10,802 bases of DNA. Origin: Tannerella sp. (GTDB lineage: Bacteria; Bacteroidota; Bacteroidia; Bacteroidales; Tannerellaceae). The stretch lies in the NCBI GenBank assembly GCA_031288935.1, contig JAITQL010000043.1:1-10802 (forward strand), given 5' to 3'. Numbering within the stretch: position 1 is the stretch's first letter; every line of letters starts with the position of its first letter. The notes below the pieces were generated by a model that had not been told where the DNA came from, ran no database searches, and saw only the letters and a list, made by a program, of their open reading frames with translations. A program made the translations under genes and the position numbers. This document shows, in pieces, positions 7,044 to 10,802 of the stretch.

Positions 7044-8207
7044 ATGCGGGATATGCGTTCCGGAAGATCTTCCGGAACCGTATATCCTGATCCGGGACGG
7101 CAGATCCTGTTCATGGCTGTTTTTATCATCCTGATGTTAGGCGCCTATCTGGGCGGCAATTATTACATTTGCCTGCGCGGATTGCAGGCAATGCAGCATT
7201 TCCCGCTCCCTGCCAGATGGGTCTTCGGCGTGCTTGTGTGGGGCAGCGCATTGTCCGTGTTTTTGACCTTTGTGCTGCGCAATTCCAAACTGTCTGCCAC
7301 GCCCTGGGCGCATTTCTTTTTCGAATACAGTTCCGGCTGGCTGGTTTTCACGCTGTACATGGTACTGTTTCTGTTCTGTTTCGATCTGTTCCGCCTCTTC
7401 AACCATCCGTTTCAGTACGGATTCGCCGGCGCGCTCGTGTTGACAGCCTGTCTGCTGTCATACGGGTTTTATCGCTTTCAGCATCCTTCCGTACAAGTGA
7501 TCCGTCTGGCGGTGAACAAGCCGGCCGCCGTCGACACGTTCAGGATCGTAGCCGTGAGCGATGTTCACCTGGGAATGGGGACAAGCGACGCCATGCTGCA
7601 AAAATACATCCGGATGATCAATGCGCAGCAGCCGGATGTGATTCTTGTCGGCGGCGACCTGATCGACAACAGCATCGTCCCGGTACGGGAACGGCAGATG
7701 GAAAAGGCGCTGGCGCAGCTTCAGGCCAAATACGGCATTTACATGGCGCCCGGAAATCACGAATACATCAGCGGCATTTCTCAGTGCGAGCAGTATCTGC
7801 GGCAGACGCGGATATGTCTTTTGCGGGATTCGGCGGCGACGCTGCCCAACGGCATCCGGCTGGTTGGACGGGACGACCGCAGCAATCCGCTCCGGCAAAC
7901 GCTGCCGCAGCTGCTTGAACAGGTCGACACCGCGTTTCCCGTGATCGTACTGGATCATCAGCCGGCCGAACTGACCCCCGCGGCGGATGCCGGCGTCGAC
8001 CTTTTGTTTTGCGGACATACGCACGACGGGCAGGTATGGCCGATGAACCTGGTGACAAGCCGCCTTTTCGAACGCAGTTACGGATTCGAGAAGCGGGGCG
8101 GCGCCGCGATCTATGTCTCCTCCGGCCTGGCGCTCTGGGGGCCGCCCTTCCGGATTGGCAGCCGGAGCGAAATGGTCGTTTTCGACCTTACCTTCCAGCG
8201 CCCATGA
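7044..8207 (+). CDS. Membrane-anchored metallophosphoesterase, YkuE-like (paralogue 1)
   Basis: This is a 387-residue calcineurin-like phosphoesterase. The N-terminal 145 residues hold about four hydrophobic segments (roughly 22-38, 58-78, 98-118, 126-142). The catalytic domain follows with the full metal-ligand set: Asp173-x-His175 (SDVHLG), Asp205 (GGDLID), Asn238-His239-Glu240 (GNHEY), His305 (DHQP) and His325/His327 (GHTHDGQ). The di-metal site should therefore be active on a phosphoester; the YkuE/YaeI type includes lipid-headgroup phosphoesterases, but the substrate cannot be read here. If the N-terminus is cytoplasmic and there are four membrane spans, the catalytic domain faces the cytoplasm. 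It starts 3 nt after the nitroreductase stop and overlaps the next gene by ATGA. The first codons contain a perfect 20-bp palindrome (7058-7077). A later start at 7113 would remove 23 residues including that palindrome. Confidence 0.9.
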   Translation: MRDMRSGRSSGTVYPDPGRQILFMAVFIILMLGAYLGGNYYICLRGLQAMQHFPLPARWVFGVLVWGSALSVFLTFVLRNSKLSATPWAHFFFEYSSGWLVFTLYMVLFLFCFDLFRLFNHPFQYGFAGALVLTACLLSYGFYRFQHPSVQVIRLAVNKPAAVDTFRIVAVSDVHLGMGTSDAMLQKYIRMINAQQPDVILVGGDLIDNSIVPVRERQMEKALAQLQAKYGIYMAPGNHEYISGISQCEQYLRQTRICLLRDSAATLPNGIRLVGRDDRSNPLRQTLPQLLEQVDTAFPVIVLDHQPAELTPAADAGVDLLFCGHTHDGQVWPMNLVTSRLFERSYGFEKRGGAAIYVSSGLALWGPPFRIGSRSEMVVFDLTFQRP

Positions 8208-9352
8208 GAGTTTTTCTGCAAGCTGTTTTCGGACAGATTCTATTCGGCGGATATATTTTATGGCGCGGACGGCAGGCGCTTCCCCGCACGAAAGCGTGGC
8301 GCGTGACGTACGCGGGCTGCTTTCTGCTGGAGTGGATGCTGTACTTCACCGGCTATTTCTTCCACGGCTCCCTGCCGGAAAGCCTGCTTGAAACCATCCT
8401 TCTGGTTTGCAACACCTGGTATATCGCCTCCATTTATGTGACGATGGGGATGCTCCCGCTGGAGATCGTCGGGCTGACCCAACGGCGATGGAAATGGTAT
8501 CCGCAAACAGTCGGGAAACACTGGCGGGAAATCAAGCTAACCCTCTTCTTCCTGTTCATTGCCGGCGTGACCGGTTTGATGATCAGCGCCTATCACAACG
8601 TCGCCTGTCCGGTTGCAAGGCATCTCTTCCTTCATGTCCCCAAAACGGTGGAGGGCAGGGACAGCCTGACGGTCGTCCTGATGTGCGACACCCACTTCGG
8701 CGAAACCGTCGGGAAAAGGCAGGCGCAGCGCTACGTATCGCTCTGCAACGCCCAGCATCCCGACGTGATTCTCGTCGGCGGAGACCTGATTGACTATGAA
8801 TCCATCGTTGCCGAACAGGCGCATATCGAAGACGATCTCCGGCAGTTGAGCGCCCCCCTGGGCGTCTACCTCGTCCTCGGCAATCACGAATACCGTGCGA
8901 ACAGACATGCCAAACTCCGGTGGATACAAAAGACGGGGGGCATTCTGCTGGTTGATTCGGTGGCCATGCCCGACTCCTCCTTTTACATCGTGGGCCGGGA
9001 CGACGCCCTCAACCCCGGGCGCGCGGCGCTGCATACGCTGATGAAGGGACTGGATCATTCGAAACCGGTCATCGTCCTGGATCACCAGCCAATCAGCATC
9101 AACGAAACCCTGATGAACCGGGCGGACATAGCGCTGCACGGGCATACGCACAACGGCCAGCTATGGCCCAATTCGTTGCTCCTGAAATTTGTGTACGAGT
9201 GTTCCTATGGCTATTACCGGAAGGGCGACACGCAGTTCTACGTCTCCTCCGGCATTGGCTGCGCCGGGCCGCCCTACCGCGTTGGCACCCGTTCCGAACT
9301 GGCAGTGCTGCATATCACGTTTGATAAAAATACCTGCAAGGCAAATGAATAA
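8204..9352 (+). CDS. Membrane-anchored metallophosphoesterase, YkuE-like (paralogue 2)
   Basis: This 382-residue protein starts at an ATG overlapping the previous stop (ATGA), which implies translational coupling. The reading frame is open further upstream to 8009, but that part overlaps the conserved C-terminus of paralogue 1 and has no domain character, so ATG 8204 is chosen. About four hydrophobic segments (3-20, 33-53, 62-90, 111-129) precede the catalytic domain. Metal ligands are intact: Asp162-x-His164 (CDTHFG), Asp194 (GGDLID), Asn227-His228-Glu229, His294 (DHQP) and His313/His315 (GHTHNGQ). The catalytic domain closely resembles that of paralogue 1 (shared PDVILVGGDLID, PVIVLDHQP, GHTH-GQ-WP and YVSSG), whereas the membrane parts have diverged. 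This points to an old tandem duplication and perhaps different substrates or a hetero-oligomer. The TPR-lipoprotein fragment overlaps its 3' end. Confidence 0.9.
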   Translation: MRVFLQAVFGQILFGGYILWRGRQALPRTKAWRVTYAGCFLLEWMLYFTGYFFHGSLPESLLETILLVCNTWYIASIYVTMGMLPLEIVGLTQRRWKWYPQTVGKHWREIKLTLFFLFIAGVTGLMISAYHNVACPVARHLFLHVPKTVEGRDSLTVVLMCDTHFGETVGKRQAQRYVSLCNAQHPDVILVGGDLIDYESIVAEQAHIEDDLRQLSAPLGVYLVLGNHEYRANRHAKLRWIQKTGGILLVDSVAMPDSSFYIVGRDDALNPGRAALHTLMKGLDHSKPVIVLDHQPISINETLMNRADIALHGHTHNGQLWPNSLLLKFVYECSYGYYRKGDTQFYVSSGIGCAGPPYRVGTRSELAVLHITFDKNTCKANE

Positions 9353-9716
9353 AGTGGATGTACCGGTATTTGACGGCATGAAAGGGTACGGCCGGACGGG
9401 GGTGTTTCTCCTGTGGCTGGCGCTGGGGATGTGCACGGCGTGCACGGATTATGAGGTGCGGCGGATGGAGGACGAGGCGGAACGGCAAATCACGATCTGT
9501 CCGGACTCGGCACGCACGCTGCTCGAAGATGCCGCGCTCCTTTTTCCGGCAAGCGATCCGCTTCATGCCCGCTGGTGTCTGCTGTCGGGGATGGTGGAGG
9601 ACGAGATGCGGAAAAACGGGCGTTACGGCCATCTTTTGCCGGTCAACGAGTGGCTGCGTGCAACGGCCTGTTACGACCGGAAGGGCACGACGGAAGAGCA
9701 GGCGCAGATACCCTGA
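9345..9716 (+). CDS. N-terminal fragment of a TPR-type lipoprotein, probably a pseudogene
   Basis: This 123-residue frame overlaps the preceding stop by 8 bp. A second ATG at 9378 gives a more typical signal peptide (MKGYGRTGVFLLWLALGMC). The lipobox region is CTAC, with Cys33 counted from 9345. The mature part reads PDSARTLLEDAALL ... DPLHARWCLLSGMVEDEMRK ... WLRATACYDRKGTTEEQAQI. From memory this is the N-terminal pattern of Bacteroidetes TPR lipoproteins, which normally continue for several hundred residues, often into a C-terminal regulatory part. Here it stops just as the second TPR helix should begin. In the +1 frame immediately afterwards, EKRVQDGSRYETGL (to about 9756) resembles the expected continuation, which suggests a frameshift near 9705-9720. 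After that the sequence changes into a repeat-like GC-rich element. Inferred to be a decayed gene, probably still cotranscribed with the operon. A genuine short lipoprotein remains possible. Confidence 0.55.
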   Translation: MNKVDVPVFDGMKGYGRTGVFLLWLALGMCTACTDYEVRRMEDEAERQITICPDSARTLLEDAALLFPASDPLHARWCLLSGMVEDEMRKNGRYGHLLPVNEWLRATACYDRKGTTEEQAQIP

Positions 9717-9750
9717 AAAGCGTGTTCAAGACGGAAGCCGCTATGAAACC

Positions 9751-9860
9751 GGGCTTGCACCCTTTCAGGGCTTGGGTGGCGGTCGGCAACGGGGTCACAG
9801 GGCGTTGCCCCGTGCTATTGCTTGCCGGGGCGTTGCCCTTCCAATGTTTGCAGGGACGGG
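9751..9860. repeat. GC-rich hairpin element resembling a dispersed Bacteroidales repeat
   Basis: GGCAACG (9785-9791) pairs perfectly with CGTTGCC (9803-9809) across an 11-nt loop. GGGCGTTGCCC occurs twice as a direct repeat (9800-9810 and 9828-9838) and is itself nearly palindromic. The segment translates as LHPFRAW ... GRCPVLLLAGALPF, and in reverse as NRPSLQTLEGQRPGK. I recall such strings as frequent spurious peptides in Bacteroidales genomes, where they mark a dispersed noncoding element. The repeat identity is from memory; the hairpins are seen directly. Confidence 0.45.
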
Positions 9861-9960
9861 CGGTTGTTTGGACAATGGCCGCGCTTGCCGGTGACGGCGT
9901 CGGAGTATTCACCTTCGATGCGCAGCGTGTGGCTGACCGGGTCACGTTCCCCAAAAGGCC

Positions 9961-10254
9961 GGCTTCCCCTTCAAAAGGACTGGTTTCCACTTCGAAAGGG
10001 ACGGTTTCCTCTTCGAAGAGGACGGTCTCCACTTCGAAGTGGACGGCTTCCCTTTCGAAGTGCCCGGTTTCCTCTTCGAAGAGGACGGTCTCCACTTCGA
10101 AGAGGATGGCTTCCCCTTCGAAGTGCCCGGCTTCCACTTCGAAGTGGACGGCTTCCCTTTCGAAGTGGACGGCTTCCACTTCGAAGTGGAAGGTTTCCCT
10201 TTCGAAGTGCCTGGCTTCCTCTTCGAAGTGGAAGGTTTCCCTTTCGAAGTGGAA
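9961..10254. repeat. Array of 14 tandem 21-bp imperfect palindromes centred on TTCGAA
   Basis: Fourteen consecutive units of exactly 21 bp, without a single indel, begin with GG at 9961 and every 21 bp after it. Unit positions 10-15 are TTCGAA in units 2-14 and TTCAAA in unit 1. Five units (starting 10003, 10024, 10066, 10129, 10171) are perfect palindromes of at least 16 bp, for example TCCACTTCGAAGTGGA. The others mismatch mainly at positions 8, 9, 16, 17 and 19-20. Units 3-5 (10003-10065) and 6-8 (10066-10128) are 63-bp copies differing at 3 positions; units 11-12 and 13-14 form a similar 42-bp pair. Flanks hold degenerate units (about 9945-9960 and 10255-10278). No stop codon occurs within the units in the frames examined, giving heptapeptide repeats such as GFHFEVD, STSKWTA and LPLRSGR. 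Coding is therefore not supported over chance. Confidence 0.95.
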
Positions 10255-10387
10255 ACCTTCCGGTGCGTTGTCGAAGACGGTCATTGCCCGCAAAATACCT
10301 GTCGCCGCGTCGCGCCGGGGCGTGGCAGAGAGGCGGCGGAACCGGCGTACGGCGCTGGATGTGCGGTGCGTGAAGACGGGGAGGGAA

Positions 10388-10533
10388 ATTCAAAGATTCA
10401 AGGATTCAAAAATTCAAAGATTCGTTTCCCGCAGATTCCGCAGATTGCAACGGCCTGCGATCTGCGGAATCTGCGCCTTCATCCATCGCATCCGCGTGAA
10501 ATACGGAATTTTTGAATCCTTGAATCTTTGAAT
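10388..10533. repeat. Large nested inverted repeat built on 8-bp and 9-bp tandem repeats
   Basis: Outer arms of 28 bp are perfectly complementary (10388-10415 and 10506-10533). Each is made of 8-bp tandem repeats of the type GATTCAAA/GAATCTTT, with further copies flanking. Inside lies a second inverted repeat with 16-bp perfect arms (10430-10445 and 10460-10475), made of CGCAGATTC-type 9-bp repeats. With a T-G wobble and GCA/TGC pairing, this inner stem extends to 20 bp around a 6-nt loop (10450-10455). The structure begins about 18 nt after the stop of the TolC gene on the minus strand and separates the two convergent transcription units. It may act as a 3'-end structure; function is inferred. 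Confidence 0.9.
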
Positions 10534-10551
10534 CCTTGAATCCGAAGCGTC

Positions 10552-10802
10552 TTACAGTCCCGTGGCGGAGAGTTCGGCAAAGGCTTTCCGGAAGTCGCGT
10601 TCCGTCTCCAGCGCCTGACGGAGGGTGTCGTAGTAGTAGCCGAGTTCCGTCAGGTAGTCGAGCAGGGAGATTTCACCGGCGGCAAGCGACTTCTGCAACA
10701 GCGCGGAGGGGTTCAGGTCGACGAGCGGGGTGCGGTACGCCTCCGTGGCCCGGTGCAGCGTGGCGGCGCGGAGGTACAGACCTTGCAGACGGTTGCGGAA
10801 CT
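10552..10802 (-). CDS. TolC-family outer-membrane efflux protein, C-terminal end only
   Basis: The minus strand is open from the right edge to TAA at 10552-10554, giving the last 82 residues of a protein. The sequence is helical: FRNRLQGLYLRAATLHRATE, then LNPSALLQKSLAAGEISLLDYLTELGYYYDTLRQALETERDFRKAFAELSATGL at the end (written here in parts: LAAGEISLLDYLTELGYYYD, RQALETERDFRKAFAEL). The GEIS-lldYl-E-yyYd-r-qalE-erdf-kA-AeL pattern is the last coiled-coil helix pair of Bacteroidetes TolC/CusC-type proteins. These form outer-membrane channels for RND or ABC-type export, including metal efflux. Partner genes would lie beyond the right edge on the same strand. The assignment rests on a short tail, so pump class and substrate are unknown. 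Confidence 0.75.
   Translation of the reverse strand, partial: FRNRLQGLYLRAATLHRATEAYRTPLVDLNPSALLQKSLAAGEISLLDYLTELGYYYDTLRQALETERDFRKAFAELSATGL

Follow-up and report, generated by a model that had tools for sequence, protein, structure and literature searches.

Why would a tandem array lying between genes keep a period of exactly 21 bp, two turns of B-DNA, through 14 consecutive units? The window analysed here takes in all 10,802 bp of contig C13, from a genome that comprises 1.85 Mb in 264 contigs and is 56% complete. TRF and a unit list delimit the array as 14 units with a period of 21 bp and 0% indels (Table 1). The hexamer TTCGAA occurs in 13 of the 14 units, first at 9991 and last at 10243 with an exact spacing of 21 bp, and is replaced by TTCAAA in unit 1 (9961-9981); the window holds 16 TTCGAA in total, whereas 200 dinucleotide shuffles averaged 5.1 and never exceeded 12. 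Five dyads form long perfect palindromes, four of 16 bp and one of 20 bp, and the other eight TTCGAA dyads are short, three of 8 bp and five of just 6 bp. The preliminary description had reported fourteen phased TTCGAA palindromes in an intergenic position, five of them perfect over 16 bp or more, and had read them as a platform for a dimeric protein or a chain of RNA hairpins. Its unit number, exact period, lack of indels, five long palindromes and intergenic position all hold, with TTCGAA present in 13 rather than 14 units; the observation is partly confirmed and the interpretation partly supported, as detailed below.

Table 1 Features of the window at and around the 21-bp array
Feature	Position	Strand	Remarks
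5' fragment of TPR gene	9345-9716	+	cut after Ile122 codon; stop formed at element edge
Element leader	9712-9960	+	94% identical over 249 bp to C154:3176-3424
Generic dispersed module within leader	9732-9885	+	holds GGGCGTTGCCC palindrome; both orientations elsewhere
Tandem array, 14 x 21 bp	9961-10254	.	consensus GGYTTCCNYTTCGAAGTGSMN; 42- and 63-bp higher-order repeats
Element tail	10255-10386	+	query 10254-10386 97% identical to C156:5996-6128 (-)
8-bp microsatellite (ATTCAAAG/ATTCAAGG), left arm of inverted pair	10388-10423	+	TRF and inverted-repeat search
8-bp microsatellite, right arm of inverted pair	10506-10543	+	inverted-repeat search
Converging gene 3' end, open at contig end	10552-10800	-	no Pfam hit

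The array is a minisatellite with no sign of coding, carried by a dispersed element whose left edge adjoins a truncated TPR gene. Homologues of the TPR fragment were found in 4 of 40 other genomes of the genus, with alignments that start at residue 22-25 and end at residue 122 of 123. Their stop-to-stop frames span 513, 690, 212 and 586 codons (those of 513 and 212 reach a contig end) and run on past the point at which the window reads EEQAQI-P-stop. Both kin proteins put through a Pfam scan have TPR-family matches; the 123-residue fragment of the window has no Pfam match, and the window, whose contig ends 550 bp beyond the array, does not show the remainder of the gene on the right side of the element.

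Both flanks of the array recur in the genome. The leader has at least 58 matches, 56 of them in its generic module (40 of 67 candidates scored), and its copy at C154 adjoins a different gene as judged by eye. The stretch 10244-10560 has at least 116 matches, 114 of them in the microsatellite pair and the sequence between its arms (40 of 216 candidates scored); over 28 nt (10388-10415 and 10506-10533) the arms are 100% complementary. The tail is matched elsewhere by C156 alone and is present in 1 of 41 genus genomes, its own. Contigs C154 and C156 both terminate within the array and may therefore be the two ends of one further copy. An exact two-unit pattern of the array retrieved 0 records from genome_contigs and viral_contigs, where own-genome records may be left out, and the array units match G048 over 45 bp at 82% identity. 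The 176-aa metagenome ORF P0002 carries on the 7-residue steps of the minus-strand frame of the array, equivalent to 21 bp, together with part of the tail; 0 of 4 viral-contig candidates for it were confirmed. Restriction of the array to one genome had been named beforehand as an outcome that would speak against a conserved binding array: the sequence is nearly private to its own genome, and P0002 points to another copy.

The eight window genes scanned with Pfam comprise two metallophosphoesterases, a nitroreductase, an RNA methyltransferase, a DUF5686 protein and three without a family; the converging gene at the right end is possibly TolC-like. The two metallophosphoesterase genes lie side by side (7044-9352) as an apparent tandem duplication that is kept in L145, and the only relative found for a metallophosphoesterase of the window in named genomes, at 71% identity, is in the MAG Tannerella sp. 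Gsp477_bin149, presumably of a termite-gut series, which makes the lineage Tannerella-like. With regard to bidirectional promoter activity, a trait of the BrickBuilt MITE compared below, a sigma-70 scan of 9650-10600 returned 0 sites with a model that may not suit the host; promoters of Bacteroidota differ from the sigma-70 type. The 8-bp microsatellites ATTCAAGG/ATTCAAAG, which form the inverted pair in the window, have more than 100 matches in the same genome (G000), beside dispersed repeats, and 7-bp microsatellites occur in kin genomes. In the kin genome G089, locus L080 (G089:C287) carries at 1-329 a 66-bp tandem array with the GGGCAACGCCC palindrome of the window's leader module, adjoined by a Y1_Tnp gene (G089:C287:399-743), an arrangement to be expected if REP-associated transposases mobilise the leader module as a REP. 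Y1_Tnp was matched in 17 of 41 genus genomes and was not found in the window's own genome, which is 56% complete.

The array grew by whole-unit duplication. Units 3-4-5 agree with units 6-7-8 in 21, 19 and 20 of 21 bases, and the unit pairs 9-10, 11-12 and 13-14 resemble one another, agreeing at lag 2 in 17 to 20 of 21 bases; these are signs of 63- and 42-bp duplications. TRF also scores the 42-bp period above the 21-bp period (334 versus 300). A sister element with a leader and tail of its own occurs in the same genome at C204 (11.8 copies) and C223 (6.8 copies). Its units, most of which carry TTCGAG, match the window array, read on its reverse strand, at 67% identity across 179 bp. C204 and C223 share their flanks and align with a single 105-bp gap, equal to exactly five 21-bp units; both adjoin oxidoreductase genes that look similar by eye, so that the pair may stem from duplication of the gene and not from two separate insertions. 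The alternative that the preliminary description had itself allowed, recent unit duplication as the source of the strict length, is borne out by the higher-order repeats and by this five-unit difference. Its further proviso, that homologous arrays of varying unit length would weigh against a helical spacing, finds no instance in C204/C223, the sole comparable complete pair, which keeps 21 bp exactly.

Two other sets of repeats were encountered alongside. L268 (G104:C1) holds at 7309-7464 a 21/42-bp array, GGTTTCAGTTTAAAAGTAAGT, that looks similar to the window unit by eye and has TTTAAA, not TTCGAA, as its core. Short arrays of the 11-bp unit TTCGAACACAC were found at L050, L051, L053, L061, L064, L065, L066, L069, L073 and L075 (G086, G098 and G111) within a conserved dispersed element that has a TTTTCTTAAC-like upstream block and might have a regulatory role or form one end of a mobile element. 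A one-turn form of the window array was considered for these 11-bp arrays and rejected; they sit in a different element and are therefore not counted as homologues.

To place the 21-bp period among its kind, arrays were surveyed with TRF (score at least 60, at least 2.5 copies, period at least 10) in stretches taken regardless of their repeats. Contigs C1-C22 of the window's genome without C13 and C14 (138.5 kb) hold 14 arrays, 7 with periods of 20-23 bp and 5 of 39-44 bp. In G080, a single-contig genome of the genus sampled as 20 stretches of 20 kb, 63 of the 73 arrays in 400 kb fall in these two ranges (10 at 20-23 and 53 at 39-44), the others comprising 1 at 31, 3 at 84 and 6 further periods. 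Array density is about 16 per 100 kb in G080 (L186-L205) and 9 per 100 kb in the window's genome (L166-L185), and shuffled G080 sequence yields no arrays. Five other genus genomes (249 kb) gave 13 arrays, 1 at 20-23, 5 at 39-44, 1 at 31 and 6 others, with no 20-23 or 39-44 array in the 54 and 48 kb sampled from G078 and G107. Two of eight further genus genomes (74 kb) contributed one 42-bp, one 21-bp and one 12-bp array, and the remaining six, at no more than 10 kb each, had no such array. Other genera of the family (320.6 kb) gave 7 arrays, 4 at 20-23 and 0 at 39-44, and other families of the order (322.3 kb) gave 12, 6 at 20-23 and 0 at 39-44. Since these outgroups (38 stretches, 643 kb, 10 of 19 arrays at 20-23) also favour 20-23 bp, that preference is not special to the genus. 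The 39-44 bp class was seen in the genus alone among the stretches sampled, accounting for 53 of 73 arrays in G080 and 0 of 19 in the pooled outgroups (Fisher P 3e-9).

These intergenic arrays are mostly unrelated in sequence and abundant in several genomes of the genus. When units that share at least four 10-mers on either strand are linked, the 53 G080 arrays of 39-44 bp fall into 36 clusters. The 94 units compared across the class form 65 clusters; the largest cluster of the pooled set has 11 members, ten of them from G080. The 39-44 bp arrays cover 16.8 of the 400 kb sampled in G080. A simple gene model places 50 of the 53 between genes and 3 inside them; a cruder coding filter had marked 9 of the 53 as possibly coding.

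The periods of the class suggest a link to the helical repeat, and the stronger evidence for it lies inside the units. The pooled periods fit a 10.4-bp repeat with a phase offset of almost zero, a fit given little weight because it is flat and driven by the peak at 41-42 bp, and the periods 22, 23, 40 and 44 deviate from exact multiples of 10.5. Within units, each unit of 39-44 bp was treated as a circle, and its fourth-harmonic power (about 10.4 bp) in the purine/pyrimidine sequence was compared with shuffles. For the 53 units of G080 the power reaches z 9.4, and for the 8 units from all stretches of the window's own genome, two of them related, it reaches z 7.4; of these 8, 6 are well in excess of the shuffle mean (about 0.025). 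In neither set does another purine/pyrimidine harmonic rise above z 2. For 60 units of 40-43 bp the power is 0.060, against 0.023 (sd 0.003) in background windows of the same length from the same loci. Four of the five strongest G080 units have one common motif (AAAAAGTTTT-like), and taking one unit per family lowers the one-turn signal, which still holds at 0.0525 versus 0.0245 in shuffles for 44 units. Outside the best dyad the signal persists at z 6.5 (63 units) and, with one unit per family (45 units), at z 3.8; in that reduced set the second harmonic rises as well, to 2.8.

Two genomes show the one-turn pattern in their four-turn arrays. The six units of 39-44 bp from other genus genomes give z 0.2, and A/T phasing at one turn gives z 3.7 in G080 and -0.9 in the window's genome. 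Units of 20-23 bp at one turn score z 2.1 in the window's genome, 0.3 in G080, 0.1 for two other genus units and -0.2 in the outgroups. The window unit itself consists of one pyrimidine half and one purine half; its 10.5-bp purine/pyrimidine signal is almost nil (0.010-0.013), and a 21-bp signal is present. A helix-level constraint on the class is well supported, and the earlier proposal that helical phase matters stands for the class across several genus genomes but not from the window array alone.

Dyads were also assessed across the class. The best dyad arm averages 5.4 bp both in the window's genome (n 25, a set that includes stretches fetched for their repeats) and in G080 (n 63), compared with 3.6 and 3.8 in shuffled units, and the dyad reaches P 0.05 or below in 38 of 94 units and in 1 of 4 from the family outgroup. 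Among 57 indel-free arrays of at least 4 copies, 42 have arms of at least 5 bp, and in 30 of these the arm positions are less variable than the rest (Wilcoxon P 0.0006).

On this evidence we consider it roughly an even chance (about 0.5) that the array is a minisatellite in an element like BrickBuilt, compared below, and that the unit length of its class is held near helical turns by DNA shape. An element composed of leader, array and tail may have landed in the TPR gene or replaced the rest of it. The window unit would be one case of a class held near two or four whole helical turns, the longer units repeating a purine/pyrimidine pattern once per turn, and the constraint would act on the shape of double-stranded DNA. 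We infer that selection on this shape holds the period, with a wrapping or bending protein as its reason. The arrays would most likely be phased, bendable or wrappable DNA engaged by a nucleoid protein or gyrase, the ligand being a guess, and engagement mainly through shape and dyad would allow the unit sequence to drift while fixing the spacing. More speculatively, some genomes of the genus might carry hundreds of mostly unrelated helix-locked arrays, a figure extrapolated from the 16 per 100 kb sampled in the single-contig G080, in which runs of purines and pyrimidines alternate with every turn; together they might make up a sequence-free, shape-coded platform for wrapping or bending proteins, and the 21-bp array of the window might be a two-turn form of it.

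The main rival is a purely mutational cause. Neutral or selfish minisatellites would arise by slippage or unequal crossing-over, with no binder and no function, and helix geometry would set the step through hairpin-assisted slippage between sites on one helix face; slippage biased in this way could yield the same periods. The whole-unit duplications accord with such a process, and quasi-palindromes could both seed slippage and make paired changes. The placement of the arrays can be read either way. By gap length, the 48 placed G080 arrays of 39-44 bp occur in all intergenic types roughly in proportion (27 in 48.4 kb of tandem, 14 in 22.0 kb of divergent and 7 in 13.0 kb of convergent gaps), as expected of neutral repeats, whereas by gap number the divergent type is richer (14 arrays for 31 gaps, versus 27 for 172 tandem and 7 for 33 convergent gaps). 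The reduced variability of the arm positions argues against neutrality, and a purine/pyrimidine pattern repeated at each turn is not what unit duplication alone would produce. We regard a neutral origin as a possibility to be taken seriously, though a doubtful one.

An operator, iteron or centromere-like array, in which a sequence-specific dimer would sit on each TTCGAA dyad along one helix face, would account for the strict phase of the hexamer in the window. In a permutation test limited to the inner dyad pairs that vary on both sides, pair 8/17 is complementary in 6 of 14 units versus 4.7 in permutations and pair 9/16 in 8 of 14 versus 9.2, so that outside the invariant core the dyad is kept at chance level, beyond column make-up there is no covariation within it, and the preferential preservation of the dyad, which the preliminary description proposed as a test, is not seen in this array. 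The TTCGAG of the sister element, the similar 21-bp array of G104 without TTCGAA in its unit and the largely unrelated units of the class also speak against a sequence-specific ligand, and none of the eight window genes scanned with Pfam was recognised as a replication or partition gene, on a contig that stops shortly after the array. Such an array is improbable here.

Equally improbable is the proposal that the array is transcribed and works as a chain of structured RNA hairpins. Predicted folding is much stronger than in shuffles for each strand (z -9.66 and -9.77), but the very build of a quasi-palindromic tandem repeat makes either strand fold well. Of 20 distinct paired arm changes across the class, 11 are complementary, compared with 38 of 168 over eight slid controls; the controls slid by +2 and -2 alone give 9 of 25 and 9 of 19, and paired changes are therefore treated as weak and class-wide pairing as suggestive only. 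The helix-phase signal, moreover, is present outside the dyad too. A known RNA family was also considered and rejected, the window having no Rfam match at gathering score, and a CRISPR array was rejected on the contiguity of the units, which have no spacers.

The array shows no sign of coding. Several reading frames are open through it and a crude coding filter marked it as possibly coding, but the largest share of synonymous changes over six frames is 0.43 versus 0.38 in column shuffles (P 0.28), and no Pfam family is matched in three array frames. In a database of 5.8 billion proteins, searched by a method that finds only sequences sharing 5-residue words with the query, three proteins reach E 0.001 or below with the minus-strand frame (the window's own, P0002, and P0003, which matches the leader only), and with the plus-strand frame only the window's own does. 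Of 93 pooled genus periods of 18-100 bp, 44 cannot be divided by three, and codons are thereby ruled out as a cause shared by the class. A translated heptapeptide-repeat protein, for instance from the FE-rich frame on either strand, is therefore very improbable despite the open frames and the extension of one of them in P0002, given the synonymous test, the lack of a Pfam family, the few database proteins and class periods of 22, 23, 40 and 41; the earlier concern that such arrays might lie inside conserved, expressed heptapeptide-repeat proteins finds no support.

A constraint by DNA shape and a mutational bias carry different meanings. If selection on DNA shape holds the periods, bacterial non-coding DNA would hold a sequence-independent code; if mutation does, the periods would tell of slippage geometry in living cells, and both outcomes bear on how bacterial tandem repeats acquire their unit length. 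Repeats of 22, 23 and 41 nt had been described one by one in P. gingivalis in the portion of the literature available to us (PMC4596501). Here, in several genomes of one genus, mostly unrelated arrays run at two and four turns, and the four-turn units have a one-turn inner pattern. None of the literature matches listed deals with helix-locked periods of bacterial intergenic arrays. The window array is ordinary in form, a minisatellite in a dispersed element, and opens on a striking regularity in its genus.

Among known systems, the pneumococcal BOX elements have a similar modular build of leader, repeated unit and tail and are intergenic and dyad-rich, but belong to a different phylum and have a unit of about 45 bp and a different sequence. 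REP/BIME palindromes accompanied by REP-associated tyrosine transposases (PMC2817692, as far as the part at hand describes them) resemble the leader module, likewise a short palindromic repeat with dozens of matches; REPs are not head-to-tail 21-bp arrays, however, and the window's incomplete genome has yielded no such transposase. A-tract periodicity in prokaryotic genomes is helix-phased and linked, in the excerpts consulted, to curvature and chromosome organisation (PMC3940949, PMC3372288); it concerns short A/T runs genome-wide, whereas the class described here consists of fixed-length tandem arrays with purine/pyrimidine phasing.

The closest described elements, in the accessible part of the source, are two dispersed MITEs of Porphyromonas gingivalis, BrickBuilt, with intergenic tandem units of 23 nt between a leader and a tail, and 464/PgRS, with tandem units of 41 nt (PMC4596501), and their existence corrects the earlier view that no described element has this form. 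The same part of that report cites 22-nt repeats for strain W83, describes the 23- and 41-nt repeats as non-homologous and draws no link between these lengths and the helix. BrickBuilt as described there and the window element share an intergenic position, contiguous spacerless units, a distinct leader and tail, occurrence at several loci, change by whole units, contig breaks in the repeats, long predicted stem-loops, spurious hypothetical ORFs and the bacterial order. The BrickBuilt architecture is thus present in the window, a spacerless intergenic minisatellite between conserved leader and tail; whole-unit copy change is displayed by the sister element at C204/C223, the window element's other copies stopping at contig ends.

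The differences from BrickBuilt, on the same partial account, lie in sequence, unit length (23 versus 21) and ends. The published degenerate 23-mer was found in 0 of 393 genomes of the order, a set that includes the window's own and perhaps lacks P. gingivalis. The IS5-like terminal inverted repeats of BrickBuilt (GAGACC..TGCA) were not found in the window element: none of six published end variants lies within 1 mismatch in 9600-10600, matches with 2 mismatches occur at 9659 and 10446 only, outside the element ends, and none was seen near the C154 and C156 copies. Among the 25 inverted pairs listed, out of 26, none links the end of the leader with that of the tail; the pair that comes closest (9700-9712 / 10466-10478; 13 nt, 92%) sits in the cut gene rather than in the element. 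Target-site duplications are reported for BrickBuilt, whereas the right edge of the window element is formed by the 8-bp microsatellites, with no empty site found, and no BrickBuilt copy interrupts a coding sequence, whereas the window element abuts a truncated gene. The window element is therefore not filed as a member of BrickBuilt. The flanks of 464/PgRS are said to be repetitive, and this element is known here by description, with only the inverted ends compared; its 41-nt tandem units, which reside in a dispersed element, have the length of the four-turn class of the genus.
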